64,000 nucleotides of DNA, taken from positions 1 through 64,000 of IMG/VR virus record IMGVR_UViG_3300009285_003054; one strand, written 5' to 3'. The translations under genes and the position numbers were made by a program. Below the pieces are notes generated by a model, which was given only the letters and a program-made list of their open reading frames with translations, was not told the DNA's origin and ran no database searches. The number at the start of each line of letters is the position of its first letter. Position 1 is the first letter of the stretch. Positions 11,667-32,333 of the stretch are shown here, one piece after another. Origin of the DNA: a virus.

Positions 11667-13070
11667 CTACTCAATATCCTTGGTGAACTCTTTGTATTGT
11701 TCAAATGCCCACCCTGTGGCCATCTGTTGTCTGCAAATGTTGTGCAGGTCTATTAGATATGTTCCGGGGTCATGTGCCTCTTCGTAAACTAGTCTTCGGA
11801 ATTCCACCCATGACATGCTCACTCCGTAGAATTTCTTGGCCTTTTTGTAGACTATTTCTTTTGTATCCCCCACAACAGTCGGAACCTGAACATTAAGGGT
11901 AACCCTTTCTCGACCAACCCATTCTGCCTGTCCAGTCATGCAGAGGAATTGAAACACATCATACGCTCGATCCACCCCCGAGCCACCACCACCGCTCTCT
12001 TTGAAGCAGATTCGACTCCATGTCTGGTCAGTGGCTGATCCTCGTCTTCGATTTTTCTTGAATGCGTGAGCAGCGTATACAAAAAAATCCTTCCCACTGA
12101 GACGCCAAGACTGCTCTATCCGCCTCCCTTTGGCTTTTACTGCCGGTTGTGGCATGCCTGATGAACGCGCAGACATCCATTCGATGGTATCCGAGTGGTG
12201 ATGGAGTGCCGATCCCCCCGTCATGTACTCTGGAGATCCAAAGACCACCCCGGGTTTTACTTTGATATGGTTGGTGAAGAAAAGCACACCACCCTTCCGT
12301 TTAAGCAGTGATCTTACTACATGAAACCCGGTACCAAACATCCGGGCTTGAGCAGCCATCGGGTTGCTGTCGGGGTTATCAGCTAATGATTTAGGGGTAA
12401 GATTGGCTGCGCTATCACAGAAAAACGCAACCTGTGGTGGGCCGGATGTATAATCCGGTAAGGTTTTCAGTACCCATGCCATGAAGCGGAACCAGTCGTC
12501 ACCCGATGGAAAATCCACAAGTTTCAAACAGGGATGGGTCCAGGATTGATTTCTCGCGTCCCATTCCAGTTCTACACCCCACTTTCGGATAGCTACTGCG
12601 CCATATGTCCAGTCTATGGCTGTCTCTGCGTCGAAAACATAGGTTACGATCCTCCTAGCAAGACAGTCACCCATAGACTCAAAGTAATCGGTTGTCTTCC
12701 CTGCGTGGGGATGCCCCGCTTTTGTATGCACCTTCCCTGGTGGGATCCCACCCCCCAGTGCTAAATCAGCCACTAAACATCCGGATGTGACGCATACGGA
12801 TGCGGTCGATACCGTGGCGTCTTCCCGCCTGCCACTGGTTTTGTCCAGAATAGTTAATAGGGTTTTATCCGGTGTCTGCACCTCAGTCGGGGTGTACTGA
12901 TCACATGCGGGTGTCGAGTTGGCTACCCCCCTCATCAATCGACACCCTAACCGTGGGTTACCTAGCTCAAAACATGGTGCGTCAATCCATTTACAGTAAA
13001 TGCAACTTTTTTTCGACTTGTGGGGTTTTCTACCATGGGGAAGGGGGCCTGGCTGATGTGGCTTTAACAT
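11667..13070 (-). CDS. RecA-like recombinase with added N-terminal cysteine cluster
   Basis: The core looks like RecA: Walker A GHPHAGKTT (119-127), a FDAE stretch and a TNHIKVKPGVVFGSPEYMTGG loop matching RecA's INQIR...GSPE...GG region. It would bind single-stranded DNA and pair homologous strands. The first 60 residues carry CIYC, then Cys at 33, 43 and 56, a likely zinc or Fe-S site absent from ordinary RecA. The start is uncertain: I chose the ATG at 13070, which overlaps the upstream gene's stop (ATGTTAA). ATGs at 13091 and 13160 are also in frame. From 13070 it has 467 residues, longer than the usual 350. Confidence 0.85.
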   Translation of the reverse strand: MLKPHQPGPLPHGRKPHKSKKSCIYCKWIDAPCFELGNPRLGCRLMRGVANSTPACDQYTPTEVQTPDKTLLTILDKTSGRREDATVSTASVCVTSGCLVADLALGGGIPPGKVHTKAGHPHAGKTTDYFESMGDCLARRIVTYVFDAETAIDWTYGAVAIRKWGVELEWDARNQSWTHPCLKLVDFPSGDDWFRFMAWVLKTLPDYTSGPPQVAFFCDSAANLTPKSLADNPDSNPMAAQARMFGTGFHVVRSLLKRKGGVLFFTNHIKVKPGVVFGSPEYMTGGSALHHHSDTIEWMSARSSGMPQPAVKAKGRRIEQSWRLSGKDFFVYAAHAFKKNRRRGSATDQTWSRICFKESGGGGSGVDRAYDVFQFLCMTGQAEWVGRERVTLNVQVPTVVGDTKEIVYKKAKKFYGVSMSWVEFRRLVYEEAHDPGTYLIDLHNICRQQMATGWAFEQYKEFTKDIE

Positions 13071-14800
13071 TGTTCTACTCGCTTTCGACATACTGCGCAG
13101 AACAGATACCTTCCCGTTCCACACAGACCGTAAATGGTTGCCGAACCACATTGGGGACACTGGTGCCCGGATGGGGCACTGTGAAATGACGTCAATTCAC
13201 CATCTGCTGTAAAATCAATCCCGGAAATAGACATACACCCGGGCTCTGGGCACTGCAGTACCGGAGTAGGTTTGTATATCAGTCGCATGGGAACCCTCAT
13301 GTGTACTCGAAGATTGTCACATGTGGGTACTTCGGATCCGAAGACCTGATTAATACTGCACCATTCCGTGGTTACTGCAGTCGTCATGCAGTTGCGCCAA
13401 AACAGTCGAAGCACCTTTTCCGGAGAGGTCTTTCCTTCGGCTACGCCATGCAGCATGGCTTCTATTTTGGGTATCATACGTGGGGATGCAGCCGAAGAGA
13501 AGACTCTATTGAGTACCCGCCCTACCAATTCCCCTGTCTGTGATAACCGAAGGGATGAGTCTTCGGTAGTGATGAATCCCGCATCAATTGCCCGTTGCAG
13601 ATTTCGGACAAAGTGCCCGATGTCATTTACTCCAATATCTCTAAGAGTCTTGAGTAGGCTACCTACAGTGTAGGGTGTCTTTTGTGGATCGTGAATCTCT
13701 ACATGTGAGGCGGTAACCAGAGTTTTCTCTGCATCCAACAAATATTGATGCATCTCATCCCAAGAACCCCCACTCTTCGATGTATGTGTCAAAAGTATTT
13801 GTTTCCGATGAATAGAGTGACACCACCGAATTCGTTGACTACTATATGTAGGGTTGGACGACTCCCCCCAACAACGGATGGCTAATTTGCCTACATTCCC
13901 TCTACTCACTTTTCGGATGGCTTCCGGTGCCATTCGCACACAGAGATCCCCATCTCCCTCCGGAAATTCAATGTGCCCCTGTAGATATATGTCTAGCATC
14001 TCCGCATAGGCTGACCCTGGGGAACTATTGCTATGTACCTCTCGCATTACATTGATCATCGAGAATGGGGATTTTTCCCGCATGACAGTTGGCTCATCAT
14101 CTATTGAGACCCGATATTTATTGGTCTCTAGTAGGTGAGCCACCATCTTCGCTCTAATCCGGGTCATCTGCCCAGAGTAGATTGTTTCCCCGGACTCTAG
14201 TGTCACACCCACTCGCCATACCTTTGCCTCGGGGTCTTTACATGTACTCCTAATGTGCTGTTCTTTTTCTGCGAGGATCTGGAGAATCACTCCAATAGTT
14301 CGATTTATGGGGAGATCTTCTGGAGCATGCATGATCTCATGGAGTACAGCTCGACCCTTAACTGCGATCATGCGATCCATAGCTACTCTTACCCAATATG
14401 CCTGTGCCACGGGGAGATCTACTTGTTTGGCGGATGCTATCGCCTTATGCAATCCCCTAACGGTCAAACGCATCAGGCGCACCCGCTTAGCTAGGGGCAA
14501 AGTTTCCTGCATAATAGATGCAAAAAACTCTCCTCGTGGGGTAGGTTCAGTAGCCAAATATACCCGATACTCGCTCATCTTCTGGAGCTGGCGTACTAGC
14601 TCGTGGTCAACTTCCCAGCGGGGGCGCATGGTCTTGATACAGATACCCAACTCGGGATAATCTGGCCAGGCCACTATGTTCGGATCGATGTGAGTTACTC
14701 TCCAGTGTGGAAGTAGTCTGCGGACAACACGGGCGACCCTTTCATCGTCTGTTACAAGAATTTTTTGGCCATGACGACTGTGCTTTGTCTGCTTGGGCAT
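13064..14800 (-). CDS. Divergent type IA topoisomerase homologue lacking the catalytic tyrosine
   Basis: This 578-residue protein follows the TopA layout: a Toprim-like start (QKILVTDDERVARVV), YLATEPTPRGEF in place of the usual ATDxDREGE, an NRTIGVILQILAEKEQHI stretch matching the GRVQ region, PFSMINVMRE matching PFTTSTLQQ, and the RLSQTGELVGRVL...FSSA end of the core. The C-terminus has zinc-ribbon pairs (CPEPGC, CPQCGS, CAVC). The catalytic ITYxRTDS motif reads IEFPEGDG: the tyrosine is Phe (codon TTT), and the Toprim DxD is Glu-Pro-Thr. Normal relaxation by strand cleavage is therefore doubtful. It may bind DNA without cutting. The start has GGAG eight bases upstream. Confidence 0.8.
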   Translation of the reverse strand: MPKQTKHSRHGQKILVTDDERVARVVRRLLPHWRVTHIDPNIVAWPDYPELGICIKTMRPRWEVDHELVRQLQKMSEYRVYLATEPTPRGEFFASIMQETLPLAKRVRLMRLTVRGLHKAIASAKQVDLPVAQAYWVRVAMDRMIAVKGRAVLHEIMHAPEDLPINRTIGVILQILAEKEQHIRSTCKDPEAKVWRVGVTLESGETIYSGQMTRIRAKMVAHLLETNKYRVSIDDEPTVMREKSPFSMINVMREVHSNSSPGSAYAEMLDIYLQGHIEFPEGDGDLCVRMAPEAIRKVSRGNVGKLAIRCWGESSNPTYSSQRIRWCHSIHRKQILLTHTSKSGGSWDEMHQYLLDAEKTLVTASHVEIHDPQKTPYTVGSLLKTLRDIGVNDIGHFVRNLQRAIDAGFITTEDSSLRLSQTGELVGRVLNRVFSSAASPRMIPKIEAMLHGVAEGKTSPEKVLRLFWRNCMTTAVTTEWCSINQVFGSEVPTCDNLRVHMRVPMRLIYKPTPVLQCPEPGCMSISGIDFTADGELTSFHSAPSGHQCPQCGSATIYGLCGTGRYLFCAVCRKRVEQC

Positions 14801-19214: not shown

Positions 19215-20048
19215 AGCTACACCACGGGCTACATCCACCCAAGGGACCCCTATTTTGTCGCTAAACTTGTCTCCGCCTAAGAAGTTTCTCTCTAGCCCAA
19301 TGGCCGCTATCATTGTGGTTCCCGATCCAAGGAAAGGATCGCACACACTACCACCGGGTGGACAAAAGCATTTGATTGCGTCTATGGCGAGTTGGGTACA
19401 AAATCTTGCGGGGTGCCCAACGGCTTCTAGGTAAGGATCATCGTGATTAAACCCAACCGTGTATGCCCACACGGTACCCCGATTGGCTAATCCCAATGAC
19501 TTACCCGACGCTTTTCTTTTCTTACACATCAGACCGTCTCTGCCACGGTTTGATTTCCAGCCGTAAGTACCGTGGCTAGCTGCTTGTGCTACCGCTAGTT
19601 TGTCTATGTACGGATTCCCACCTAACTTCTCAAACCAAAAGAGGTGCTCAAAGTCGTTGCGAAACCTACCAGAGAATGCACCTACTGCACCCGTGCGTTG
19701 GTAGATCATTCTATCCGGGACTCGCAGGCCAACTCGCTCAGCCCAATCGATTCTAACCTTATCTATCACCAAACTTCTCTCTGTTCCAAACCCTTTTCTG
19801 TATTTCCGAATAGGGGAGTCTATTACCATCAGGCACGTACCTCCGGGTTTGAGTCCACGAAGGATATAATCCCCCAACGTCTGATAATCCCGAAGTCCCC
19901 ATTTTACGTTGGCCCCGTAGTCCCTCGCGTCCATGTATGGTGGCGATGTCATGATTAAATCTACTCCACCGATGGACTCTGCTATTTTAAGTGTCTTTTG
20001 GAAGGATGCTTTGTATAATCCGATAATATATCTATCCCACCAAGCCAT
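19176..20048 (-). CDS. DNA methyltransferase (N4-cytosine / N6-adenine type)
   Basis: The catalytic motif TSPPY (residues 34-38) comes before the SAM-binding motif DPFLGSGTT near residue 243, which is the beta-class order for amino-methyltransferases. Motif TSPPY leans to N4-cytosine methylation, but adenine cannot be excluded. HPARFCTQLAID is the usual segment before motif I. The start at 20048 has AAAGGTG six bases upstream; an in-frame ATG at 20069 does not. No restriction nuclease partner is seen, so this is probably an orphan enzyme protecting phage DNA. Confidence 0.9.
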   Translation of the reverse strand: MAWWDRYIIGLYKASFQKTLKIAESIGGVDLIMTSPPYMDARDYGANVKWGLRDYQTLGDYILRGLKPGGTCLMVIDSPIRKYRKGFGTERSLVIDKVRIDWAERVGLRVPDRMIYQRTGAVGAFSGRFRNDFEHLFWFEKLGGNPYIDKLAVAQAASHGTYGWKSNRGRDGLMCKKRKASGKSLGLANRGTVWAYTVGFNHDDPYLEAVGHPARFCTQLAIDAIKCFCPPGGSVCDPFLGSGTTMIAAIGLERNFLGGDKFSDKIGVPWVDVARGVALKKFATHPLWER

Positions 20049-20090
20049 TGTTTCACCTTTGACAATCATAGCACCAAAACGATAGGTATA

Positions 20091-20882
20091 TCAAATATCT
20101 CTCACTCGTTGATACATACGCCAGTTCCATATCGAAGGTAACCCGGAGATATCAGGTAGATAGAAACCAGCAACAAATCCCGGTTTTACCCATTTCCCAA
20201 GCATAGTTACTCGTCCACATTCTTCTAACCTCCACACTGCACCCTCAATGGGATCCAATTCTCCAGAAATTCCGGGAATGTTCTGAGTTGGATTGAAGTC
20301 CCAACTCAATTCTCGGATTTTACTCTCAATGTACGGGATGGTGGCGGGATCACCTACATGGATACAACGCACGTGCTGAACCAATTCCGAACATCTACTC
20401 CATAAGTCCGGTCGAGGTAGTCTTTGTCCCTGATTGTCGAAGATGTCGAACACAACGTATGGGGATGACTCTCGACAAGGTAGCGGGAGTTTTCCTATTT
20501 CACCAATATCCTTGACATGGTACTTTGTACCATGTGCCATGGCGACCCAATCACCCACGACACGCTCCCCTGAAGTAAGCAGGGTTTTGAATCGAGCGCT
20601 CTCTCGTCTAACCCACGCAGCGAACATTTTATGTTGTGGGTGTGGTGATGCGCTCGCCGAGTTTCCAGACCGGGTATATGCCTGGATACTATCACCATCT
20701 CTGGCTACGACACAGCAAGCGCCGTCCACCTTGACATCCACATACACAGAATTCCCGTGTTGGGTTTTTTGTGTCAATTGGTGTGCGTCATCTCTTGAAA
20801 GACTCTCGTCTCCTTTAGGTGCACTAGAACCGGGGAGGTGTGGTATGCTAGCATACCGATAATTTTTATTTTCAGTGACCAT
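20091..20882 (-). CDS. ATP-dependent RNA ligase-family nucleotidyltransferase
   Basis: The ligase motifs are present in order: I, KVDGA with Lys51 as the nucleotide-accepting lysine; III, YVVFDIFDNQG; IV, PIEGAVWRL; and V, LGKWVKPGF. The length (263 residues) and motif spacing fit the Rnl2-like RNA ligases of phages, which seal nicks in tRNA or other RNA after host nuclease attack. The start ATG at 20882 follows the QueD stop by six bases and has AAGGA upstream. Confidence 0.85.
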   Translation of the reverse strand: MVTENKNYRYASIPHLPGSSAPKGDESLSRDDAHQLTQKTQHGNSVYVDVKVDGACCVVARDGDSIQAYTRSGNSASASPHPQHKMFAAWVRRESARFKTLLTSGERVVGDWVAMAHGTKYHVKDIGEIGKLPLPCRESSPYVVFDIFDNQGQRLPRPDLWSRCSELVQHVRCIHVGDPATIPYIESKIRELSWDFNPTQNIPGISGELDPIEGAVWRLEECGRVTMLGKWVKPGFVAGFYLPDISGLPSIWNWRMYQRVRDI

Positions 20883-20890
20883 GTAAATCC

Positions 20891-21475
20891 TTAGTATCTT
20901 GGACTTGGGTATTCCGCTGAGCAATTAGGTGTCTCGTATACGCGGACCCAATCGATCATGAAGAGATTGGCGTATAATTCATCACTGAAGATACGTGGGC
21001 ACACCAAATCATAGATAAAACGCGCCAGATTCTCGGCGCTCGGTGCGTAGGGGAGGATAAATCCGTATTTCCTTTTGGCACCCATACTGGATGCCGGATC
21101 CGGTATGACTAACTGTGCTTCCATTATGAGATCCGTCATGGATCCGGCAGTCGGAATCTCTAGGAGTGGGGGTTTATCTCTTCCCTGACTATACAGTGCT
21201 CGGATGAGTGGATCTCCTTTCTGCAGGATCATTGTGTGATCCCAGTTCTGGTCAATCCAACCACCCAATCGCGTCTTCAGTACACCAAAGTCTATCAATA
21301 CCCCGATGTTATCCAGTGTCTTTCCAGTGACTGCCATTTCAAACGAATATCGGTGGCCGTGCAGTGTGCTACACTTTCCCGGAGTACCGTCTAGGTTCAC
21401 CTGGTCGAGTAAGCGATGACCAGTGTCGGTCTCAGCCACCTTTCGGACAATCTGGAATCTTTTTTTGATATTCAT
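20891..21475 (-). CDS. queD: 6-carboxy-5,6,7,8-tetrahydropterin synthase (QueD)
   Basis: This is the second step from GTP toward the 7-deazaguanine preQ0. Of its 194 residues, the zinc histidines are His20, His39 and His41 (the latter two in CSTLHGH) and the catalytic Cys is Cys35. NIGVLIDFG, NWDHTMIL and APSAENLARF are the other family blocks. It is somewhat longer than typical QueD (120-150) because of an insertion around residues 100-140. It partners with the QueC-like gene (27195) and the DpdA-like gene (29413). FolE and a clear QueE are not in the window. Confidence 0.92.
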   Translation of the reverse strand: MNIKKRFQIVRKVAETDTGHRLLDQVNLDGTPGKCSTLHGHRYSFEMAVTGKTLDNIGVLIDFGVLKTRLGGWIDQNWDHTMILQKGDPLIRALYSQGRDKPPLLEIPTAGSMTDLIMEAQLVIPDPASSMGAKRKYGFILPYAPSAENLARFIYDLVCPRIFSDELYANLFMIDWVRVYETPNCSAEYPSPRY

Positions 21476-21483
21476 TGTACACT

Positions 21484-21645
21484 CTACCCTCTAAATCCGA
21501 TAGTTAGTTTATGTGTTGTCGAATCCACGGATATTTCTTGAGATTCGACCCATACACAGCTCCTAGTACTATCCCTTGACCACCAGACCACCTCATACTG
21601 TATGAATCGCCCCAATCCCCTTACTGTAACGGCTGTTATCTCCAC
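21484..21645 (-). CDS. Small hypothetical phage protein
   Basis: The 53-residue frame from a GTG at 21645 encodes a beta-rich piece (EITAVTVRGLGRFIQYEVVWW...) with the look of a small conserved phage protein. An ATG at 21756 in the same frame would overlap the upstream metallopeptidase by about 100 bases, which seems unlikely. It is placed between that gene and queD. The function is unknown. Confidence 0.5.
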   Translation of the reverse strand: MEITAVTVRGLGRFIQYEVVWWSRDSTRSCVWVESQEISVDSTTHKLTIGFRG

Positions 21646-21652
21646 GAGTATA

Positions 21653-22624
21653 TCATTCCGAAGGATGCTCTTTGATCCATCGGTACATCCCTCGTGGAAC
21701 AGTGCACACCCCCACCCTGCTGCGTGCGGCTTTGTGTAAAGTCCGGGAGGACGCACTGTTTATAACCAGTGCTTCCACCCCATCTTTACTCTTTTTCCTC
21801 TTGAGCTTCGGGCGTACAATCTCATGTTCTTCCTCTGGTTCTTCTTCAGAGTCCCCTGCGTATCGTGCCTCCAATAGTCGATTCATTTTGGCCACTATTG
21901 GCCCCATCTTTGGGTAGCGTTCTGCTTCGTCTGTGAACATTTCGATATCGTGATCCCGTACACACCACACGCCTCTCTCGTTGCGATCACAGTGCATCAG
22001 TTCGTGATCACATAGCCATGTCTTCACTACAGGCTTAACAATCTCCCACACCCCTGCACAGAAAGTAATCTTGAAGTCGTATCCGGTCAAACGTCGGAAT
22101 TCCCCACCCAGTCTCTGGCAGAATCCCCACACCTCCCCCTGTACTCCGAAGGCGGCACCCATCTTGTCGGGCTCGTAGTCCTCCAGTACGAAGAGGATCC
22201 CAGCGTTGGCCAGGTGGTGGTGATACTGTACGATCAGGTCATCTGCCACCTTTCGGACATCCTGCCCTGCCTGCTCGACATTGCCCCCGAAGATTGACGC
22301 CCATGACTTCTGCAGGGTGGGCACCTGCGAGGGGAGCATGATAGGTTTGGCGTCTTCCCCACGTAGATTTCGGAGGTTGACGCGCAAGGTATACTCTCGG
22401 GAGGCAAATACGTCTTTCATTCGACGTAGGGCATCCATATTCCGAGGGTGATCTGGGTAGTAGTAAAACCCATCATTCCCGAAGAATGGATCGTCTTCCC
22501 CGTGGGCTTGGTAGAAGAGCATCCCCAAGTCGGTAGCATCTCCACTATCCAGATTTCCTTTGACATGCCGAAGAATGGGTTTATCTTTCGGTCCAAACGC
22601 GGTCCCCAGTAGAACTTTTTGCAT
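21653..22624 (-). CDS. Putative phage metallopeptidase (HExxH)
   Basis: The protein has 323 residues. Residues 183-225 read DFKITFCAGVWEIV...TWLCDHELMHC, then a WCVRDHDIEMF segment. The HELMH zinc site (His207, Glu208, His211) and the flanking pattern match the 'putative phage metallopeptidase' family. The N-terminal half has a separate domain with a YYYPDHP segment, and the C-terminal 80 residues are charged and likely disordered. The substrate is unknown. AGGAG before the ATG at 22624 supports the start. Confidence 0.75.
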   Translation of the reverse strand: MQKVLLGTAFGPKDKPILRHVKGNLDSGDATDLGMLFYQAHGEDDPFFGNDGFYYYPDHPRNMDALRRMKDVFASREYTLRVNLRNLRGEDAKPIMLPSQVPTLQKSWASIFGGNVEQAGQDVRKVADDLIVQYHHHLANAGILFVLEDYEPDKMGAAFGVQGEVWGFCQRLGGEFRRLTGYDFKITFCAGVWEIVKPVVKTWLCDHELMHCDRNERGVWCVRDHDIEMFTDEAERYPKMGPIVAKMNRLLEARYAGDSEEEPEEEHEIVRPKLKRKKSKDGVEALVINSASSRTLHKAARSRVGVCTVPRGMYRWIKEHPSE

Positions 22625-22632
22625 AGTATCTC

Positions 22633-23697
22633 CTAGAACATGGATTCGATGTTTTCTACTCTGTCGAAAGCGATGTCTGCAAACCCACCATAAGCTTGAA
22701 TATCTTTGATGAGTTTAATGACATGGCGGATGCATTCACAATATTGTTCGGTGACATAATGTAAACATCGGCATCCGCAGATATGCCTATCTGTACAGGT
22801 CAGACACACGCGAGACTCTGGGGTATCGCCGATTTGGATTTCCCGGTGATGGTGGAGTTGGGCTATTGGTCCGAGGCAAAACCTCGGATTAAGTATTTGC
22901 TCCGGGCAGGCATATACAATTCCATCATTGAACGCAGTCATGTGGTGCGTACCCGCACCACACCCTGCTACTAGATTTTCGAATGGATCATACAGTTGTG
23001 GGTACAGTAGTCTGTGTGCTACATTGTCAAACGGAACTAATATTACTCTTTCTTCTCCTGTTAGTAGTCGATGTACCCACCAGTCAACCAGCTCCGTAAG
23101 ATCGTGAAGTCTCTCCTGTAGATCCATCGCGTCTCCATCTGGACGATTTTGGAACTGCCAGTAGATCTTCGAGAAGTTCTTTGCTACCCCCAATACAGAC
23201 CGATATAGCCCTGCGGATGGGGTAATAGTCATTCTGGCAATCATTTCTACAGTTTTGTCATCTGTCATTGTTTGGAATTTTTGAACCTCTTTGGTTACTC
23301 TGTCAAAGGTACCTTCTCCTCTAGACATATCGTTATCATTTTTAGGACCGTCTATAGATATTTGAATTTGATCGAGATGGTTCCTGATGTATGGTGTCAT
23401 TTTCGATAGTAGTGTACCGTTGGTATGCAAGCCATAACGGACTCGAAATTTTCGAGTCCCACGGATCACAGCTTCGATCCACTCTTGATTAAGGAGTGGC
23501 TCCCCTCCAGTGAACGTTACGAAATCCCTTGGAAGACACATGTTCTGCACTGCAAAAATAGCAGTGGTCACCGGAAGAATTGGGTATTGGTGCATCCGAG
23601 TATCCACGCCGGATGATGACGTGGATCCTCTGCCCTGATAGCAGTACGAGCACCTGAGATTGCACTTTGAGGTTACACAGAATTCGACACTGGCCAT
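22633..23697 (-). CDS. Radical SAM enzyme with SPASM-type C-terminus
   Basis: The Fe-S motif CNLRCSYC lies at residues 12-19, then FTGGEPLL (SAM binding) and QISIDGP. The C-terminus carries cysteines in GCGAG, YACPEQ, and CLTCTDRHICGCRC, the SPASM arrangement that holds extra Fe-S clusters. Such enzymes modify peptides or other large substrates by radical chemistry. It is not QueE, which lacks SPASM and is shorter. It heads a group with two GNAT-like paralogues and an aminopropyltransferase-fold gene, so the substrate may be a modified base or polyamine-like side chain (inference). Confidence 0.88.
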   Translation of the reverse strand: MASVEFCVTSKCNLRCSYCYQGRGSTSSSGVDTRMHQYPILPVTTAIFAVQNMCLPRDFVTFTGGEPLLNQEWIEAVIRGTRKFRVRYGLHTNGTLLSKMTPYIRNHLDQIQISIDGPKNDNDMSRGEGTFDRVTKEVQKFQTMTDDKTVEMIARMTITPSAGLYRSVLGVAKNFSKIYWQFQNRPDGDAMDLQERLHDLTELVDWWVHRLLTGEERVILVPFDNVAHRLLYPQLYDPFENLVAGCGAGTHHMTAFNDGIVYACPEQILNPRFCLGPIAQLHHHREIQIGDTPESRVCLTCTDRHICGCRCLHYVTEQYCECIRHVIKLIKDIQAYGGFADIAFDRVENIESMF

Positions 23698-23748
23698 TAA
23701 TTACACCTTGTGGAAGTGTTATTTGTCCGACGGTTCTATCGAAACTCT

Positions 23749-24852
23749 CTATCTGGTCACATCGCCACTCCACCGAAGCCCTGGGATAGGGATTGTTCGA
23801 TCAGTGAATGCTTCTTTGTACTTATCCACAGATGCGTCCCAATTTGCTGCGATATCAACCACTCCTACTGGTGGGTATTCCATTGAGAATGCGCAGTCTA
23901 CAAACCGAATGAAAAGGTTAGGGACAATAGACAACCCCCGCAGGTCTGGTCTTTGTTTTGACATAACCAGCTCCAGGTTGGCTGCCATTTCCCGTGTGCT
24001 ATTTGTTTGGTAGCATTTTGGCATTGGCATTAATGTACCTCCAGCAAAACCAACTACCTCGCCACTAGGGAGTTTAGCGGTAACTGCTATCCCATAGCCA
24101 GCTCGAAGACATGGCAACAGCTGTGTCCCCAGATATATCTCGAAATCTGCTAGTGCTTGTGCTCTACAGAGTGTGGGACATTGGTAGAGTACCGGGAAGT
24201 CTACTGCTCTCTCAGGTGCCAAACCCATGAGTTCTTGGTATACCCGAGCATTCTCGGGTTCCCACCGATCCAAGAAATCGGGGAGTACTTCATGAGCATA
24301 TCCGGATGCGTTGGTGTAGTACGAAGTGTCATGTGTGGAAATATGCCCCGGCACATTTGAGTAGTATCCTACTTTTTTAGATTTCTCCCCATACACATGG
24401 GAAATATAGTCGAATCCCCGACTTTTAAGGGTGGTGCGTACCCAACTTTCTGTGTCTAACGGTCGATCGATCACGTGGGTTTTCCATCCATCTGAGACAC
24501 GCACCATCCCAAACTCGCTCCAAGGAACGTTCTCTGGAAGAAATCGCTCGAGGAGAAATTCGTTTTCGTATGTAAAAGTGGATACGCATGGTATCGTCTG
24601 AAAGGACGGGGTTCTACCTGCATCTATATCTTCAGACAATCCCACTCTCTCTACATCCTCCTGAATCGGACAAAACCATGTTTTGTCCGATTCATAGATG
24701 TAGAATTTTCGCATGCTCTTTCCACACAATGACAGAGGCAAGCCGGAAATCATTAGATCTATTGCTTGATCAAGCCCAAATTTGATCCCGCTGTACCAAG
24801 GGACAACGTCACGAAACCACGACAAAGGTTGATCTGTCATCTGAAATGCCAT
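23749..24852 (-). CDS. GNAT-like protein, paralogue 1
   Basis: This 367-residue protein is clearly related to the next gene (24853-25914). Shared blocks include (E/N)(S/P)D(K/E)(T/S)WFCPI near the start, VPW(S/D)(E/Q)FG in the middle and a shared (I/D)(P/V)PGLR ending. The C-terminal 130 residues look like a GNAT acyltransferase: an AVTAKLPSGEVVGFAGG strand pair, ELVMSKQRPDLRGLSIVPNL in the place of the acyl-CoA loop, and NWDASVDKYKEAF at the end. The N-terminal 200 residues are unrecognised. The start directly follows the upstream paralogue's TAA, with GGAG eight bases before. Confidence 0.7.
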   Translation of the reverse strand: MAFQMTDQPLSWFRDVVPWYSGIKFGLDQAIDLMISGLPLSLCGKSMRKFYIYESDKTWFCPIQEDVERVGLSEDIDAGRTPSFQTIPCVSTFTYENEFLLERFLPENVPWSEFGMVRVSDGWKTHVIDRPLDTESWVRTTLKSRGFDYISHVYGEKSKKVGYYSNVPGHISTHDTSYYTNASGYAHEVLPDFLDRWEPENARVYQELMGLAPERAVDFPVLYQCPTLCRAQALADFEIYLGTQLLPCLRAGYGIAVTAKLPSGEVVGFAGGTLMPMPKCYQTNSTREMAANLELVMSKQRPDLRGLSIVPNLFIRFVDCAFSMEYPPVGVVDIAANWDASVDKYKEAFTDRTIPIPGLRWSGDVTR

Positions 24853-25914
24853 TTACACAACTCCTTTCATACGGAGACCCGGGACATCAACCACTCGAGG
24901 GCGAAATGCCATTTTGTACTTGTCCAATCTCGTGTCGAAACTGGTCCCTAATGCCACGGCGGGCATATGCAGTTTCCAGAAGACATACTCAAACATCCGA
25001 AGAAAGAGCATTGGAACCAAGCCAAAGCTCCGGTACTTTTCTGATTTATTGGTCACCACCAGTTCGGTGGCAACGATACCCGGTCTATATTCTGATCCGT
25101 TATCTGTGTAAACGTTGTAACACCGTGCTGCTCTGGCGTACCTACACATGAGCATACCAACAGGATTACGCCCGTCACTGTACCTTACAGCAAAGGCACA
25201 CCCCCGTGTTAGCTCTGGCAGAAACGAGTGGTAAAAGTAAAGTTTGGGGTAAGTAGCGTCGGCAAAAAGAGACTCTCCTGACACAGCTTGTGGTAATCCG
25301 TCATCTATTCCTACAAGCGACGAGCTATTGGCTTTTTGACACCAGTATGATGTTAGGCTCGGAAGGAGTTGGTAGAATGTCTCCACTACTACTTCAGGTT
25401 TAGTGACCACATCCCACTGTAGCTCATTGGATCGACACCCATACACGCGGGATCGATAGTTCCCTCGGATGTGCTTGCTGACCCATTCGCAAAATGTGAT
25501 TTCTTGTCTTTCAGTTGGATTGTCTACTACAAGTTGTCGCCACCCAGTTGGGGTATACTCCAGCCCAAACTGGTCCCAGGGTATGTCCGGACGAACAAAC
25601 CATTCAAGGATGCTGTCATATGTCCCCTCGAAGTAGATCAGGCGCACTACCGGGATTATCTGCGCTCTTCCGGTGGTGTACATTTGTCCAATCTCTACTG
25701 TAGTGAAGATTGGACAAAACCATGACTCATCCGGGTTGAAAAGGTAGTATTTCTCCATGCCCGGATCCAACGGTTGCGTTTCCAGTCCGTACGCTATATC
25801 ATACACCAGTTTAGTCTGCAGAAACTCACCCATCTCGACGGTTTTGTCAAGTAGGCATTTTGAGAACCACGGGAGTGCCGATTCTGTTTTCTGAAACATA
25901 CTTTTACCTGTCAT
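24853..25914 (-). CDS. GNAT-like protein, paralogue 2
   Basis: The protein has 353 residues from the ATG at 25914, which overlaps the aminopropyltransferase stop as ATGA. It matches the downstream paralogue throughout, including SWFCPI, RSRVYG, ELVVTNKSEKYRSFGLVPML and SFDTRLDKYKMAF. The C-terminal third has the strand-helix order of GNAT acyltransferases; no acetyl-CoA loop can be proven by eye. Tandem divergence suggests two sequential or alternative acceptor substrates. The two genes are translated as a coupled chain with the neighbouring enzyme. Confidence 0.7.
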   Translation of the reverse strand: MTGKSMFQKTESALPWFSKCLLDKTVEMGEFLQTKLVYDIAYGLETQPLDPGMEKYYLFNPDESWFCPIFTTVEIGQMYTTGRAQIIPVVRLIYFEGTYDSILEWFVRPDIPWDQFGLEYTPTGWRQLVVDNPTERQEITFCEWVSKHIRGNYRSRVYGCRSNELQWDVVTKPEVVVETFYQLLPSLTSYWCQKANSSSLVGIDDGLPQAVSGESLFADATYPKLYFYHSFLPELTRGCAFAVRYSDGRNPVGMLMCRYARAARCYNVYTDNGSEYRPGIVATELVVTNKSEKYRSFGLVPMLFLRMFEYVFWKLHMPAVALGTSFDTRLDKYKMAFRPRVVDVPGLRMKGVV

Positions 25915-26684
25915 AGACAAACTCGAGTAAAATGGTAGAATGTCCAAAGTGACTCCGTGTCTACTAATACATCACCCCCTTTAAGCCACGTGCTATTCAG
26001 CAGCCGCACTGCCTCGGTGACTGTGTCCTTCCCTTGGATGCCAGCATACCCGACCTGTGCACAGAATATCCCATCCGATTTTAGAAGTAAAGCTACATCG
26101 TTGAAAAACTCCTTACTGAAGACTGCACACGGGTCACCGTCTGGCTCTGATAGGTCATATACAATTCCTGAGAAGCGCGTTGGTGTTAGGTAGATGTTTT
26201 TGACTACTTCTCGAACGTCACCATTAATCAGATTCACCCTCTTGGGGATTGCATCATCTGTGAAGACACCACCGGTTTCACCCTCGTCACCATCAGGTTG
26301 GTTCTGATATGTCCACCATTCCGGCATGTGATCTTTGGCCAACTTTTGAACATGTGGATCGATATCCACACCTGTTACATGACCCCACCCTGCATCCAGC
26401 AGTATCCGTATTGCTGCCCCGGGACCTGTGCCTAGAACTAATACGTGCTTCTCAGCCCGGTCAACCACACATAGTAGCGGCTTTACCAATGCCGAGTGGT
26501 AAGCATCTATTACCCTAGAGTTACTCTGCTCCCTTCCGTTGATCACCAACACTTTGTCACCACCTGTGGTGACAAAGATACCCACCTCGTTATGTACATC
26601 AGTGCTCCCATAGGAAAGCACTTGTTTCACGTCGAAGTGATGTCCCTGTCCGTCAGGGAACTCTACTGTGTATCGCAGCCCCAT
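25911..26684 (-). CDS. Spermidine synthase-fold aminopropyltransferase-like enzyme
   Basis: The 257 residues follow the polyamine aminopropyltransferase plan: an N-terminal beta domain with DKVLVINGREQSN, then YHSALVKPL (the usual YHE..vH.p region), the nucleotide loop VLVLGTGPGAAIRILL, VTGVDIDPHV, a VNLINGDVREVV stretch and the YDLSEPDGDP substrate segment. These enzymes move an aminopropyl group from decarboxylated SAM to an amine. YDLSEPDG replaces the typical D-x-x-D-P, so the acceptor may differ. AAGGAGG precedes the ATG at 26684. It is coupled to the GNAT-like pair. Confidence 0.82.
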   Translation of the reverse strand: MGLRYTVEFPDGQGHHFDVKQVLSYGSTDVHNEVGIFVTTGGDKVLVINGREQSNSRVIDAYHSALVKPLLCVVDRAEKHVLVLGTGPGAAIRILLDAGWGHVTGVDIDPHVQKLAKDHMPEWWTYQNQPDGDEGETGGVFTDDAIPKRVNLINGDVREVVKNIYLTPTRFSGIVYDLSEPDGDPCAVFSKEFFNDVALLLKSDGIFCAQVGYAGIQGKDTVTEAVRLLNSTWLKGGDVLVDTESLWTFYHFTRVCL

Positions 26685-26696
26685 AAATCCTCCTTG

Positions 26697-27188
26697 TTAT
26701 CGCAATAACATGCGATCTTCGGCTTGTGCGCAGGCCAAAAACGTTTTGGCCATGGCCATGATCACATGCCGCATTTCTGGCGGTGCTTCAATATACGCAT
26801 TCACATATACGTGATACGACTCTCTGGGGCAGTCGACTATATACTGCTGCTTACCCACGACTATGTGGTAAGCAGCTCGGAGGATCTCTGTTTTCTGCTT
26901 GAGGAACTCCGGAGTTACCTCGGGATAGCAAAATCGTTGTGCGAGCCCCTCCAGTAATTGGTGAGTACGAGAGTCTTGTTCTGCCAGAGTGCAACCACAC
27001 GACCGGCAATGTTGACAGATGTACCACAGGCAAGTCTGACACTGTTCGATCGCTCGAAAGAGTTTCGAGCACGACCAACAGGTATGAAACTCTTCACAGA
27101 AGTTATGCCCAGCACGCTCCCGTCGACATGTAGTGTTGGGTGTATCTATGGTGGCTTCGTGATCCAATAACCTTTCGAGGTAATGCAT
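26697..27188 (-). CDS. Cysteine-rich zinc-binding hypothetical protein
   Basis: The protein has 163 residues. Residues 20-70 carry many Cys and His in pairs (HTCWSC, CQTCLWYICQHC, CGCTL), fitting two or more zinc knuckles or a RING-like cross-brace. The C-terminal 90 residues are helical, with no recognised motif. It sits between the QueC-like and aminopropyltransferase genes in one operon, seven bases after the QueC-like stop. It may be a scaffold or nucleic-acid binder for the modification enzymes, but this is a guess. Confidence 0.72.
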   Translation of the reverse strand: MHYLERLLDHEATIDTPNTTCRRERAGHNFCEEFHTCWSCSKLFRAIEQCQTCLWYICQHCRSCGCTLAEQDSRTHQLLEGLAQRFCYPEVTPEFLKQKTEILRAAYHIVVGKQQYIVDCPRESYHVYVNAYIEAPPEMRHVIMAMAKTFLACAQAEDRMLLR

Positions 27189-27194
27189 CCTTGG

Positions 27195-28226
27195 TTATTC
27201 TCCCTTTTTTTCTGGTTTGAACATTTTATATACTCCGCTAGCGTATACTGCAAGGGGATGAGTAGTATGCGAAAGCTGCTGTACTAGCTCCCTTGCTAGA
27301 CGATTGGTGTACTCGCTAAGAGGATCAATAGTGCAAAGAAGAAGAGGATCTTCAATGCCAGCAGCGTGGAATCCCTTCTCCCGAAGTACTGTGGCAGGGT
27401 TGTCAGCAATGGGTGGCCATGCTCCGTTGTAGTCGGTGTGGGTGTACCGGAGCATTTGGAAGTAGTAGTCACCCATGTCGTGCAGTGCTATGACTTCCTC
27501 CGCCTTGGTCATGTGCATGAGCGGAGTAACGATACGAATGCGTCCGCCATGGAAAACCTCACGCCCAGGCTCCGCAGATTGGCTGTCATAATAGGAATCC
27601 ACAAATCCGATATGCTTGTCACCTCCGAGAGCAACACTGGCCGCCAACTCGAATGACCGGATGAAACCCTCCCGACAATCTGGATACCCGCTGTAGTCGG
27701 CTTCGCAGACTCCGGTCCAGATCTCAGAACACCCGAGGTTGGCGGCCAGTGCCACCGCTGCTGAGAGGAAAATCAGGTTGCGTCCCGGTACGAAGCTGTC
27801 TGGGAGACTGGGATCAAAATGGCTGGGGGCATTTCCGACTGTGTTACCCCGGTGTTTCTTTCTGACGGGAAAAGTAGCGTACCCTCCCAGCAAGTGGTAT
27901 TGTGGTTTCCTGTCGAAGTGGGTATTATGTGTGGTATCGATCAGTGTCGAAGTAGTGGTGATCTGTCCGAGGAAGCTCATGTCGAGTAGATACCAGCGCT
28001 TTTCGGCAGCCAAGACATGTGCCATTTTAGCGCCATTGGCGATGACTTGCGTCACGTACTCATCGGTTAACAGCTGTGCTAGTAACACCTCACGCAAATG
28101 CTTTTGCCCGTAATAGACCGACATGCAATAAATGTTCTCGGGTCCGTATTTCTTTAGGGCCATGGCTAGACAGGTAGTCGAGTCCTGACCGCCAGACAGA
28201 CATACAAGCGCTTTCGTTTTTCCCAT
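27195..28226 (-). CDS. queC: QueC-like preQ0 synthase variant without zinc cysteines
   Basis: QueC turns 7-carboxy-7-deazaguanine into preQ0 with ATP and ammonia. The PP-loop SGGQDSTT lies at residues 11-18, VPGRNLIFLSAAVALA and TGVCEADYSGYPDCR match the family, and AGIEDPLL lies near the C-terminus. Two features are odd. It has 343 residues rather than about 230, mostly through an insertion of roughly 70 residues after the first third. Also, the C-terminal four-cysteine zinc site is replaced by a YNGAWPPIADNPATVL stretch with no cysteine. The start is set by AAGAGG before the ATG at 28226. The product may be preQ0 or a relative. Confidence 0.85.
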   Translation of the reverse strand: MGKTKALVCLSGGQDSTTCLAMALKKYGPENIYCMSVYYGQKHLREVLLAQLLTDEYVTQVIANGAKMAHVLAAEKRWYLLDMSFLGQITTTSTLIDTTHNTHFDRKPQYHLLGGYATFPVRKKHRGNTVGNAPSHFDPSLPDSFVPGRNLIFLSAAVALAANLGCSEIWTGVCEADYSGYPDCREGFIRSFELAASVALGGDKHIGFVDSYYDSQSAEPGREVFHGGRIRIVTPLMHMTKAEEVIALHDMGDYYFQMLRYTHTDYNGAWPPIADNPATVLREKGFHAAGIEDPLLLCTIDPLSEYTNRLARELVQQLSHTTHPLAVYASGVYKMFKPEKKGE

Positions 28227-28322
28227 GTTTACCTCTTGTTTGGAGTCTTTCTACAGTTACTTCTGCTTTACCCTTCCCTACCACAGACCATACCAGGGGA
28301 GGTAGTCCATGCGGGTCGGGTG

Positions 28323-28592
28323 ATGCTTGACAGTATCTATCCTGACTGGAGCGTAACTGACACTATTGATCGTCTTCAGAATGAGTTCACCCATGAGGAA
28401 TGGGAAAGTGTCCCCCTCGAGCAGGGTCCGGGGTGGTACCTGGGGAAGCATTATACCGTACTGTTGATGCCAGCCGGGGGCACTGTGTCCCATGTGCCGA
28501 TCCACACTATGCATGTGTGGAACAACCACCTCATAGGCGAGACGTTCAACTGGGCTGTCAATGCCCCCACCAGAATGGACCTTCGAGAGTAG
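28323..28592 (+). CDS. Hypothetical protein (89 aa)
   Basis: This plus-strand frame has an ATG at 28323, preceded by GTG and a weak G-rich site; the open frame continues to 28236. The protein reads as one small alpha/beta domain (WYLGKHYTVLLMPAGG, HTMHVWNNHLIGE). The longer frame on the opposite strand overlaps it, but is composed of repeats and lacks a good start. The family is unknown. It lies just before the coiled-coil gene at 28644. Confidence 0.5.
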   Translation: MLDSIYPDWSVTDTIDRLQNEFTHEEWESVPLEQGPGWYLGKHYTVLLMPAGGTVSHVPIHTMHVWNNHLIGETFNWAVNAPTRMDLRE

Positions 28593-28599
28593 CCACTCC

Positions 28600-28634
28600 C
28601 CCATCCACAACACAAGCCCCATCCACAACACAAG
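28600..28634. repeat. Tandem 17-bp repeat before a ribosome binding site
   Basis: CCCATCCACAACACAAG occurs at 28600-28616 and again at 28618-28634. The second copy ends in the AAGGAG ribosome site of the gene starting at 28644. It may be a duplicated leader or operator. Confidence 0.8.
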
Positions 28635-28643
28635 GAGACTACC

Positions 28644-29033
28644 ATGACGAAGAAGAAACCCCAGAAACAGAAAGTGTCTGAGAATTCCCTTGTTACCCTG
28701 AGCGAGGTACTCGCTCAGGTCCATGCAGACCAGCGGGTCAAAAGGGGCTACAGCCAAGGGCTACTCTTGGCTGTAGATACTCGAATTCCGAGAGGGGATA
28801 CTTTGGCGCAGCTAGCCAACATTATACATCACCACAATCGGTTGGTAGCCCAACTAGGCGGTTGGTCGGGGATGCCTCTCACTAATGACGAAGCGGATGC
28901 GTGTGTTAAGTTGGTAGAACACATGCGGAAAGATCTGAATAAATTGCTATCCCCTATTCAAAAGGAGATCCAATCCCTGGCCGAGAATATTCAAAAGGAG
29001 ATCCACTCCATTGCCAAGAAGATGGCCATGTAG
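28644..29033 (+). CDS. Hypothetical protein with C-terminal coiled coil (129 aa)
   Basis: The start has AAGGAG eight bases upstream. The N-terminus is Lys-rich (MTKKKPQKQK). The middle is helical, and the last 40 residues contain a duplicated amphipathic unit, (I)QKEIQSLAEN / IQKEIHSIAKK, which should form a coiled coil. With its upstream neighbour it forms a short plus-strand island inside the minus-strand half. Its function is unknown. Confidence 0.7.
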   Translation: MTKKKPQKQKVSENSLVTLSEVLAQVHADQRVKRGYSQGLLLAVDTRIPRGDTLAQLANIIHHHNRLVAQLGGWSGMPLTNDEADACVKLVEHMRKDLNKLLSPIQKEIQSLAENIQKEIHSIAKKMAM

Positions 29034-29083
29034 GTAGAGAATCGGATACAACACGAGCAATTTCCCTTCCTGTGTACATCCCA

Positions 29084-29416
29084 CTATCCACTCCTATCCA
29101 CCTGTCGAAGCAACTCCAGCTCTACCACAGTAGAAATCCCCGGGCATTCCCTATTATATTCAAACTCAGTCACCATTTTAGTGGTGTACCCACGCGCTCT
29201 CGATTCAAAGTATGCTGCTGCCGCACCAACCCCTAGAAAGGGTAGCGGATCTAAATCCCGCTGGATGTTTCTAACAAATTCATCTGTTTCAGGGGTGGAT
29301 GTATAAACAGCTTCCACCCGAGTGGTTACCCTGATCATCACCCCAGATGGTTCGTACAGTGGGTTACTTTTCTTTGCCGTGGATGGAAGCAACCGAAGGC
29401 GTCTTGACTGATTCAT
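29084..29416 (-). CDS. Hypothetical protein coupled to the DpdA-like gene
   Basis: This is a 110-residue frame whose ATG overlaps the DpdA-like stop (ATGA at 29413-29416), so it is made from the same message. The N-terminus is basic (SRRLRLLPSTAKK). The rest mixes strands and helices, with a GVGAAAAYFESRARG stretch. No family is recognised. The tight coupling suggests that it works with the transglycosylase. Confidence 0.7.
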   Translation of the reverse strand: MNQSRRLRLLPSTAKKSNPLYEPSGVMIRVTTRVEAVYTSTPETDEFVRNIQRDLDPLPFLGVGAAAAYFESRARGYTTKMVTEFEYNRECPGISTVVELELLRQVDRSG

Positions 29417-31383
29417 TTCCGACCGCCTTTCTTAACTGATCTCTTCAATCTCTTCCGCTTATACCGAGAACCCTGCCTCTTGTGCTTGAGGATGTTTTTT
29501 GCTTCCATCTCAGCATCAGTTACCAGGACTACCTCACCTATTCGTTCCCTCTTAGGCAGTGCTACACCATGCTGGACACAGAACAACCTTCGGGACTTGT
29601 TGTCTTTCAACTTGGCTAAGTCATCTCGTAAATCAGATGAGGCGTCTGTACCGGCACCGTCTGCTTCCCAGGACGTGCAGTATTGCTCTACCGCACGTCG
29701 ATAATCTACCTTTCCTAGGGAACGGTATTTGTACCGTTTCCTGGCCTTCTTGCGTTCCAACATTCTCTTCCGACCTTTAGTCGGTGGGTAGCATGTGAGC
29801 CCTAGCTCCAGAATCTCCTCGGGAGCTAGGTAGTTCGGGAGGGTGGTCTTCAGTAGACTAGGGAAGCTCTCTCCATTCATGAAGATGTTAGTGGCCCCGA
29901 TCTGCGAGAGAGGGTCATCCGCTTTCTCACCCTTCTTTCCGGGAAGGATGCTGTGAATCTGCCCCCCATTCCCCTGCTTCTCATAAACGAACAACATCTT
30001 GTGTTGTTCGAGAGCTGCGTCCATGTCTCCGTGAATACACTGTTCAATGAAGTCAATGATGAAATGTGCCCCGGAGTTGGTGGCATACGCCGCCTCATCC
30101 CGATACTGTTCCTCTGACATTGTGGCTGCGTTAGCTGCCCACATCTCAGTCATGCGGAGAGTTATCCAGATGTTGTGCCACCCTAGAAGTGTGTATAGTC
30201 TATAGCGTGACGGAAGTGTGAAGATATCCCATGTGGGAATACACCGGCATACCGGGCAGGAACATGGTAGAGGTGCCCCGATCACTGGAGCGACCTTACG
30301 GTTTATGTACTCCTGTTTGTTGCGCTCCCTTCCCATCGGGAAGGTGATCAGTTCACCTGACGGGAGTAGCGTCAGGTAACGATTATAACGGATACCCTGC
30401 ATCCACTGTGTGGAATCCACTGTAAATCGATCAATGTATCGCCCCAACCAAGCAAATGCCGGGATACGATGGGCCCCGGACATTGCAAAGAGATGCAGAT
30501 GTTGGTATGCTCGTTTGTAGCGTACATCCCCAGATCCGGTTCGTACCTTCCGGGTCTTCAACCAGGATGCGTTGGTAGTAGCATCTGCTTTGGTGGCATA
30601 GGATTTCTCTGGCCACGGTGCTTCTTTCAATGTCAAGATGCAATTTCGGAGGAGACTCAACTCCATCCAGTTTCCAGAGCCAATGCCCCACCCGTCCCAG
30701 TGGTTAAACTTCCCATCTCCTGATACCACTTTGAGAAAATTTCGAGCCTGTGCTATGTCAAATCCGTGAATCACGTTGAACAGCTTGACATCTGGCCCTC
30801 GAAGCTGTTCAAACACATCATTGTTGTGCGCTTGTGCAAGCGCACAAGCGTGGACTATCTTGTTCGATGCCTGGTCTACCTCCCGTGGTGGGATGTCTAG
30901 TGCCATTCCTATGTGAGCCCCTTTGTTGAAGTAACGAATGACATCTTCTGGTGGAATGTATGTAGTCTTTCCGGTATAAAGCTGTGCCCCACCAGAATCC
31001 CCGATGACCTCTAACCCAGACTTGTTCCATGTGATCATATCTTGGATTTGGATGCCTGGTCGGGCGCGTTCCATATCCCTTAACGACGCTTTGTCATTGA
31101 CGTTGTGTGCCGATACCAACACACTATTAAGCATTTTCCTCCCTACGGTGTCATCTTCGTAGGGAGAGAGATCTACCACCTCGTCCCACTCAGACATCTT
31201 CGGATAATCTTTGGGTTCCCAGACTATCAGGATTTCACGATCAGGAAAACGTGCAAATGTCACTTCTTTGCGGGGGATCTCGGCTTCCCATCCGTAGAGT
31301 AACCCGGTACGTTTCCAGCGGATATAAATCCGCATGGTAGTGATAGATCTTGGCCAACCGGCACTAGGTACCCACTCCAACAT
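29413..31383 (-). CDS. dpdA: DpdA-like DNA guanine transglycosylase (TGT superfamily)
   Basis: Proteins of this family swap guanine in DNA for a 7-deazaguanine, using the chemistry of tRNA-guanine transglycosylase. Of 656 residues, GDSGGAQ at 128-134 is the TGT active-site block with the general acid Asp129. DSTQWMQG near residue 327 is in the place of the second, nucleophilic Asp. The CSCPVCRC stretch near 382-389 with a later His fits the zinc site. The Lys/Arg-rich C-terminal tail could bind DNA. It starts at 31383 in a TAATG overlap with the upstream nuclease, with AGAGG before it. Together with QueD and QueC it points to deazaguanine in the phage DNA. Confidence 0.87.
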   Translation of the reverse strand: MLEWVPSAGWPRSITTMRIYIRWKRTGLLYGWEAEIPRKEVTFARFPDREILIVWEPKDYPKMSEWDEVVDLSPYEDDTVGRKMLNSVLVSAHNVNDKASLRDMERARPGIQIQDMITWNKSGLEVIGDSGGAQLYTGKTTYIPPEDVIRYFNKGAHIGMALDIPPREVDQASNKIVHACALAQAHNNDVFEQLRGPDVKLFNVIHGFDIAQARNFLKVVSGDGKFNHWDGWGIGSGNWMELSLLRNCILTLKEAPWPEKSYATKADATTNASWLKTRKVRTGSGDVRYKRAYQHLHLFAMSGAHRIPAFAWLGRYIDRFTVDSTQWMQGIRYNRYLTLLPSGELITFPMGRERNKQEYINRKVAPVIGAPLPCSCPVCRCIPTWDIFTLPSRYRLYTLLGWHNIWITLRMTEMWAANAATMSEEQYRDEAAYATNSGAHFIIDFIEQCIHGDMDAALEQHKMLFVYEKQGNGGQIHSILPGKKGEKADDPLSQIGATNIFMNGESFPSLLKTTLPNYLAPEEILELGLTCYPPTKGRKRMLERKKARKRYKYRSLGKVDYRRAVEQYCTSWEADGAGTDASSDLRDDLAKLKDNKSRRLFCVQHGVALPKRERIGEVVLVTDAEMEAKNILKHKRQGSRYKRKRLKRSVKKGGRK

Positions 31384-32333
31384 TACGACCTCTTTCCTTG
31401 CAGTTTGGCTACAATTTCATCCCGGGATGGGGAGAAACATACCTCGACCCATGGACACCAACGCCAGTATTCATCGCAAGCATCCGCTCGGACATTACAG
31501 TGGCCTGGGGGTAGTATCCCTTTACTTATCCTTCGCATAGTATTTGGTACGGTTTTCTCTAATCGGGCTAACCCACCGCGCTTAATCTTGCGGAAAAATG
31601 GGGTCCAATTCCTGATCCGGGGATTGTCACGTGGGATATATATCATCATCACACCCGCACACTCTCCCGGAGGAAGCACTGCGGGTTTATCCCAGAGAAT
31701 TCTCCCACGATGGTGTTTCAGTGTGGACTTCCCCCGTTTACGTACCGCACAGTACCCACAATTGAAAAACTCTCCATATACGGATACCTGGTCCAGATGT
31801 TCCTCGAATGGCCCATCCTTTACAACCCGGGTTTGCCTCCCTAACGACACCGATTTTATCTCCAATGCAAGGTAGTCGTACCCCCAGGGTGTAGGTATGA
31901 TTCCATCGCAATGTCCATACTCCCCACCATCAATCCCGATCAGTGGGTTGGGATGGACCAGGCTATACTCAATATATTCCGGCATCTGCCCACAGCATAC
32001 CCGTGGACTTAGACAATTGAGCCATATTTTTTTGCAATCCTTGCACTCCCAGGAACCGTATAGTAAACCATGGTACCCAAGGAAGGCTTGGACCGTTGCA
32101 TGTGCGGCAGTGCCCATATTGGTGTAAAGTAAAGATTCGAGTCGCCACTCTTCAGTCGGCGGCGAATGCGACTTACTTACCCACGTGGTCAACGCTATGT
32201 CCCGGGGGCAGATACCCCCGGATGACGCGCGAAACTCAGCGCGATGGTGCATTGGCCAACCCTTCCCGCGTTCGTCCATTTCGAGGAACGCTGTTGACAC
32301 TACTTTCCGAATACGGGCGATGCCACTACTCAT
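31383..32333 (-). CDS. Cas4/RecB-like PD-(D/E)XK nuclease with cysteine cluster
   Basis: The 316 residues contain the nuclease core GHCDGIIP, then LALEIKSVS, then EEHLDQVSVYGEFF, matching motifs II, III and the QxxxY motif of RecB/Cas4 nucleases. An early ICPRDI Cys and a late group (HCNVRADACDEYWRWCPWVEVC) resemble the split Fe-S site of Cas4 and AddB. An extra zinc-like pair (CKDCKK, CCGQ) is in the middle. It would cut or trim DNA ends. It is coupled by TAATG to the DpdA-like gene. The start has GGAAGGG seven bases upstream. Confidence 0.85.
   Translation of the reverse strand: MSSGIARIRKVVSTAFLEMDERGKGWPMHHRAEFRASSGGICPRDIALTTWVSKSHSPPTEEWRLESLLYTNMGTAAHATVQAFLGYHGLLYGSWECKDCKKIWLNCLSPRVCCGQMPEYIEYSLVHPNPLIGIDGGEYGHCDGIIPTPWGYDYLALEIKSVSLGRQTRVVKDGPFEEHLDQVSVYGEFFNCGYCAVRKRGKSTLKHHRGRILWDKPAVLPPGECAGVMMIYIPRDNPRIRNWTPFFRKIKRGGLARLEKTVPNTMRRISKGILPPGHCNVRADACDEYWRWCPWVEVCFSPSRDEIVAKLQGKRS

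Follow-up and report, generated by a model that had tools for sequence, protein, structure and literature searches.

A 176,803-base virus record encodes four neighbouring enzymes, which raise the question of what they build together and on which molecule. The window analysed here comprises bases 1-64000 of this record, and a DNA search with bases 20000-32000 returned no close match in a phage collection. The first-pass annotation described a radical SAM/SPASM enzyme, two GNAT-like paralogues and an aminopropyltransferase-like enzyme. It suggested that they decorate a modified base with a polyamine, in the manner of thymine hypermodification, or make a separate peptide-derived product. The cassette is best read as one that builds the side chain of a DNA base, and the chances are about even that the genes form a variable module for tailoring within a phage 7-deazaguanine operon.

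The ORF list contains all four neighbouring ORFs, in a row at 26684-22633 on the minus strand. From right to left, these are a spermidine-synthase-fold (SpeE-like) enzyme of 257 aa (25911-26684; PF01564, E 6e-14), paralogue A (24853-25914), paralogue B (23749-24852) and a radical SAM enzyme with a complete SPASM domain (22633-23697). The paralogue A ORF is listed as 24853-25947, reaching a TTG at 25947, and the ATG at 25914 is its likelier start. This start overlaps the stop of the SpeE-like gene in an ATGA junction, and paralogue A abuts paralogue B (TAA directly followed by ATG). The description of the genes as mostly joined is true of these two of the three junctions only, because a 51-nt gap separates paralogue B from the radical SAM gene.

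The boundaries drawn in that description clip a longer operon, which can be read directly from the sequence and whose genes are all on the minus strand. At its right end is a TGT/DpdA-like transglycosylase (29413-31383), whose C-terminal region is long; it is assigned by a weak TgtA-type HMM match, by its motifs and by the TGT of L104, a related phage. It is followed by a small ORF (29084-29416) that overlaps the TGT stop in ATGA and has no family match, a QueC homologue of 343 aa (27195-28226; PF06508, E 1e-40), and a Cys-rich, zinc-ribbon-like protein of 163 aa, also with no family match (26697-27188). The SpeE-like enzyme, paralogues A and B and the SPASM enzyme come next. The left end is made up of a PhageMetallopep protein (21653-22624; PF18894, E 2e-19; L104 homologue, E 1e-97) and QueD, the 6-carboxytetrahydropterin synthase (20891-21475; PF01242, E 9e-23; phrog_2389).

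Outside the window, the same record encodes QueE (125132-125920) and FolE (158634-159542), and homologues of FolE, QueD, QueE and QueC as well as TGT are all present. In alignment, QueC keeps the four catalytic motifs SGGxDS, YGQxHxxE, VPGRN and YPDC (motif definitions in PMC13329287) and lacks the C-terminal zinc Cys motif C(x)8CxxCxxC, its Cys residues being replaced. The QueC homologues of Iggy, ART and RHph_I36 likewise lack this motif, which is missing in 46 of 94 viral QueC loci, a set biased by the zinc-less query. Loci L013, L014 and L015 and the gene at 27195-28226 represent a phage QueC group with the catalytic motifs and without the zinc Cys motif, enzymes that might halt at 7-amido-7-deazaguanine. 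Together, FolE, QueD, QueE and this QueC would be enough to supply 7-carboxy- and then 7-amido- or 7-cyano-7-deazaguanine, which TGT would exchange into nucleic acid. A preQ1-type amine is not obviously available, because QueF was not found in the record. The known phage 7-deazaguanine DNA modification (FolE/QueD/QueE/QueC/DpdA) thus has its four synthesis enzymes and a TGT here, with QueC, QueD and TGT on the flanks of the cassette. The present system differs in the additional SpeE-fold, paralogue-pair and SPASM genes, in the missing zinc Cys motif of QueC and in the placement of its genes at three genome places.

The TGT keeps DSGGxQ and (S/V)DS, the family's DSGG and aspartate motifs, together with the zinc site CxCPxC...H, and shares all three with large-phage TGTs. 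Since a CxCxxC...H zinc site is seen in tRNA enzymes and the TGT matches the TgtA-type HMM weakly, the cassette might decorate tRNA, or another RNA, and not DNA. However, phage TGT homologues accompanied by preQ0 genes act on DNA where tested (PMC6884629), and an RNA target is judged distinctly unlikely.

The SpeE-like protein is a genuine relative of the spermidine synthases at the level of fold. It can be aligned to them across most of its length, and nearly all of the 24 distinct PDB sequences that it matches are spermidine synthases or other aminopropyltransferases. The fold named in the first-pass annotation was correct, but its active site is at odds with aminopropyl transfer. When the protein is compared to 80 bacterial homologues, the dcSAM-recognising Asp of GGGDGG is Pro (P88), a position occupied by Asp in 79 homologues and by Glu in one. 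N49 and V58 are found where all 80 homologues have D, and S64 where 73 have E and seven have D. The protein is also shorter (257 aa, against a median of 311) and has a shortened C-terminus. The general base D177, Y62, H63 and the residues for the SAM ribose and adenine are kept. Replacing the GGGDGG Asp by Ile in Datura SPDS1, with no other change, rendered aminopropyl transfer undetectable and conferred SAM-dependent methyl transfer, and the same replacement in Arabidopsis SPDS1 conferred some methyl transfer while aminopropyl activity was retained (PMC3725402). Methyl transfer fits the SpeE-like protein better, because its dcSAM Asp is Pro and these plant mutants gain methyl transfer, and we predict that the protein is a SAM- rather than dcSAM-dependent alkyl or methyl transferase. 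Plant putrescine N-methyltransferase is similar in its SpeE fold, its replaced dcSAM Asp (Ile there, Pro here) and its retained general-base Asp, and is of independent origin.

Aminopropyl or polyamine transfer is unlikely because of this D-to-P change and because SpeD was not found in the record. The same residues bear on whether the SpeE-like protein is an ordinary auxiliary of polyamine synthesis that supplies spermidine to package DNA, and unconnected to the rest of the cassette. This would suit its clear family membership at fold level, but the loss of the dcSAM Asp and of other (near-)invariant acidic residues of the 80 homologues, the shortened C-terminus and the missing SpeD make such a role very unlikely.

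Paralogues A and B are 25% identical (E 4e-27), and the paralogy of the pair is real. The GNAT-like label is less secure, as the matches to that fold are weak and come from the L104 relative only. Neither A nor B matches a family profile, apart from one meaningless PHROG match (E 0.25). The C-terminal half of the L104 paralogue matches the GNAT families PF13480 (Acetyltransf_6, E 0.0015) and PF00583 (Acetyltransf_1, E 0.1), both below the curated cut-offs. A low-confidence model of this C-terminal domain (pLDDT 49) had no significant Foldseek match, with GNATs scattered low in the lists, and the AlphaFold2 model of full-length paralogue A was poorer still, with a pLDDT of 34. Shallow hhalign comparison of A and B with six cellular Acetyltransf_6 proteins and the phage protein encoded at 118086 gave nothing. 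A GNAT/FemABX-like fold is a plausible candidate for both proteins. Scans with the paralogue alignment recovered the L104 protein alone among viral contigs and nothing from GTDB genomes, and tblastn with paralogue A found none in phages and plasmids.

The radical SAM/SPASM enzyme is what it was first said to be (PF04055, E 8e-15). Its CX3CX2C motif occupies residues 12-19, and its SPASM pattern is complete (CX9-15GX4C ... CX2CX5CX3C ... C). The best NCBIfam model is TIGR04084, below cut-off. In phages, tblastn gave weak matches only, with 22-25% identity among the matches listed. The protein is similar (E 1e-15) to a SPASM radical SAM protein of the Campylobacter phage CC_R7 (L011, 4560-9086), whose gene begins ~2.6 kb beyond a QueE gene. 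A RaSEA-type radical SAM enzyme was considered and rejected, there being no TIGR01210 match in the record.

The closest NCBIfam models are mostly peptide-modifying, and several peptide maturases are among the best. This would suit a cassette that is a passive passenger of a queuosine-type operon and makes a separate product, such as a small metabolite or a peptide modified by the radical SAM enzyme. The Cys-rich 163-aa protein encoded two genes upstream of paralogue A and the rarity of cassette linkage to QueC/TGT would agree with this. On the other hand, nothing resembling a RiPP precursor gene was recognised, the 163-aa protein has the look of a zinc ribbon with CxxC motifs, and L104 keeps a paralogue beside QueC/TGT though other genes there have been exchanged. 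A separate product is considered unlikely.

Thymine (5hmdU) hypermodification with a polyamine was the other route proposed. One gene recalls it, at 43976-44920 on the plus strand, whose product has the HMUDK helical domain (PF18723, E 2e-61) and is 29% identical to the SN1 homologue. This gene stands alone beside a SAM methyltransferase gene (45033-45620, plus strand). The record is possibly incomplete, and within it no PF00303 match to a thymidylate-synthase-type hydroxymethylase was found, a motif scan of the called ORFs found no P-loop kinase near the HMUDK-like gene, and a single SN1 query found no aGPT2 homologue. The cassette radical SAM enzyme could not be aligned with that of SN1 (a yuavirus) beyond the Cys motif, and the HMUDK-like gene is absent from the syntenic place in L104. 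The likeness to M6/SN1-type thymine hypermodification is therefore confined to a radical SAM enzyme in a base-modification setting and one HMUDK-helical gene. The link to this pathway is poorly supported, and thymine as the substrate is most improbable; the lone HMUDK helical-domain gene possibly represents a different use of the domain.

L104 is a fragmentary record of 51,995 bases. It and this phage have >25 genes in common, mostly in the same order, and the two TGTs are 51% identical. Between QueC and the metallopeptidase, which is the conserved right-hand edge of the slot in L104, the L104 record encodes a second QueC-like gene, an ORF, one paralogue and a B12-type ribonucleotide reductase. 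Within this fragment, a SpeE search gave nothing and a SPASM radical SAM gene was not found (phmmer with the window proteins, E 1e-3). The slot is variable and the paralogue family is its shared part, because L104 keeps a paralogue and has other genes there. Elsewhere, the cassette was found in 0 of 160 other viral QueC/TGT loci, and a regular expression for the full SPASM pattern likewise matched in none of them. No homologues of the cassette SpeE or of A/B were seen in other QueC or TGT loci. IMG/VR single-protein scans with the paralogue, SpeE, radical SAM and QueC gave nothing, and tblastn with SpeE in phages found none. Linkage to dpdA-type genes, raised in the first-pass annotation, thus exists here, where the cassette lies between QueC/TGT and QueD, and is mostly absent in other phages, with the syntenic L104 keeping its paralogue beside QueC/TGT. 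The link of SpeE and SPASM to 7-deazaguanine rests on one genome, because neither was found in the L104 fragment or in the 160 loci.

Several other features of the two records were observed. L104 has an adjacent pair of QueC-family genes (11997-13516), one with an intact zinc motif and the other divergent. Outside the window, an Acetyltransf_6 protein (genome 118086-119453) adjoins a methyltransferase fusion protein (genome 119456-121408) whose C-terminal domain looks similar, and a homologue of this fusion is found directly upstream of TGT in L104 (8013-9746). The pair at 118086-121408 is a candidate second tailoring site. The neighbouring DNA polymerase A gene (genome 121401-124499, outside the window) has an N-terminal uracil-DNA-glycosylase domain by Pfam. 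An intein splicing domain is present in an 850-aa protein (50673-53225, plus strand), whose L104 homologue ORF is ~150 aa shorter. The phage also encodes a tmRNA (genome 65379-65790, plus strand, outside the window) with the tag ANNTKHYASEPARMVA.

Tailoring of a 7-deazaguanine is favoured because the cassette lies between QueC/TGT and QueD on the same strand with short junctions, the pathway is complete in the record, and the thymine route lacks its key enzymes. The paralogue kept between QueC and the metallopeptidase in L104, its contact with PF13480/PF00583, and the SpeE fold with an altered coenzyme site also argue for it. ArcS/RaSEA provides a precedent, in which a 7-deazaguanine first receives an amino acid and a radical SAM step follows (PMC11298593). 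The likeness is conceptual, since this record has a SPASM-type enzyme instead of a TIGR01210 match.

In the proposed mechanism, the cassette would elaborate the 7-substituent of the deazaguanine, either as the free base or once it has been inserted. The SpeE-fold enzyme would use SAM to alkylate, most simply methylate, an amine. If the two paralogues are GNAT/FemABX-like, they would place one or two groups, acyl or aminoacyl, on an amine, and the SPASM enzyme would form or rearrange a C-C or C-heteroatom bond in the side chain. The acceptor, the order of these steps and DNA as the target are proposed on the same footing. Further tailoring of phage 7-deazaguanine is known from DpdM, a dPreQ1 methyltransferase, and DpdN, a formyltransferase. 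The likeness to these enzymes is by description only, and QueF for preQ1 was not found here.

Tentatively, the product may be a hypermodified 7-deazaguanine of a new kind in the phage DNA. A SpeE-fold alkyltransferase using SAM, a pair of acyl/aminoacyl transferases and a SPASM radical SAM enzyme would make its side chain, and the genes in this slot of the operon would be exchanged from one related phage to another. This combination of four enzymes is not known to have been described before. The likely role of such a base is to shield phage DNA from restriction. The phage 7-deazaguanines considered here have only small groups at position 7 (amido, cyano, aminomethyl, methyl- or formyl-aminomethyl, amidine and carboxy). 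If the proposal is true, purine DNA modification would reach a complexity so far known for pyrimidines, and a SpeE-fold alkyltransferase would join the enzymes of nucleic-acid modification. The operon is a concrete object for testing multi-enzyme tailoring.
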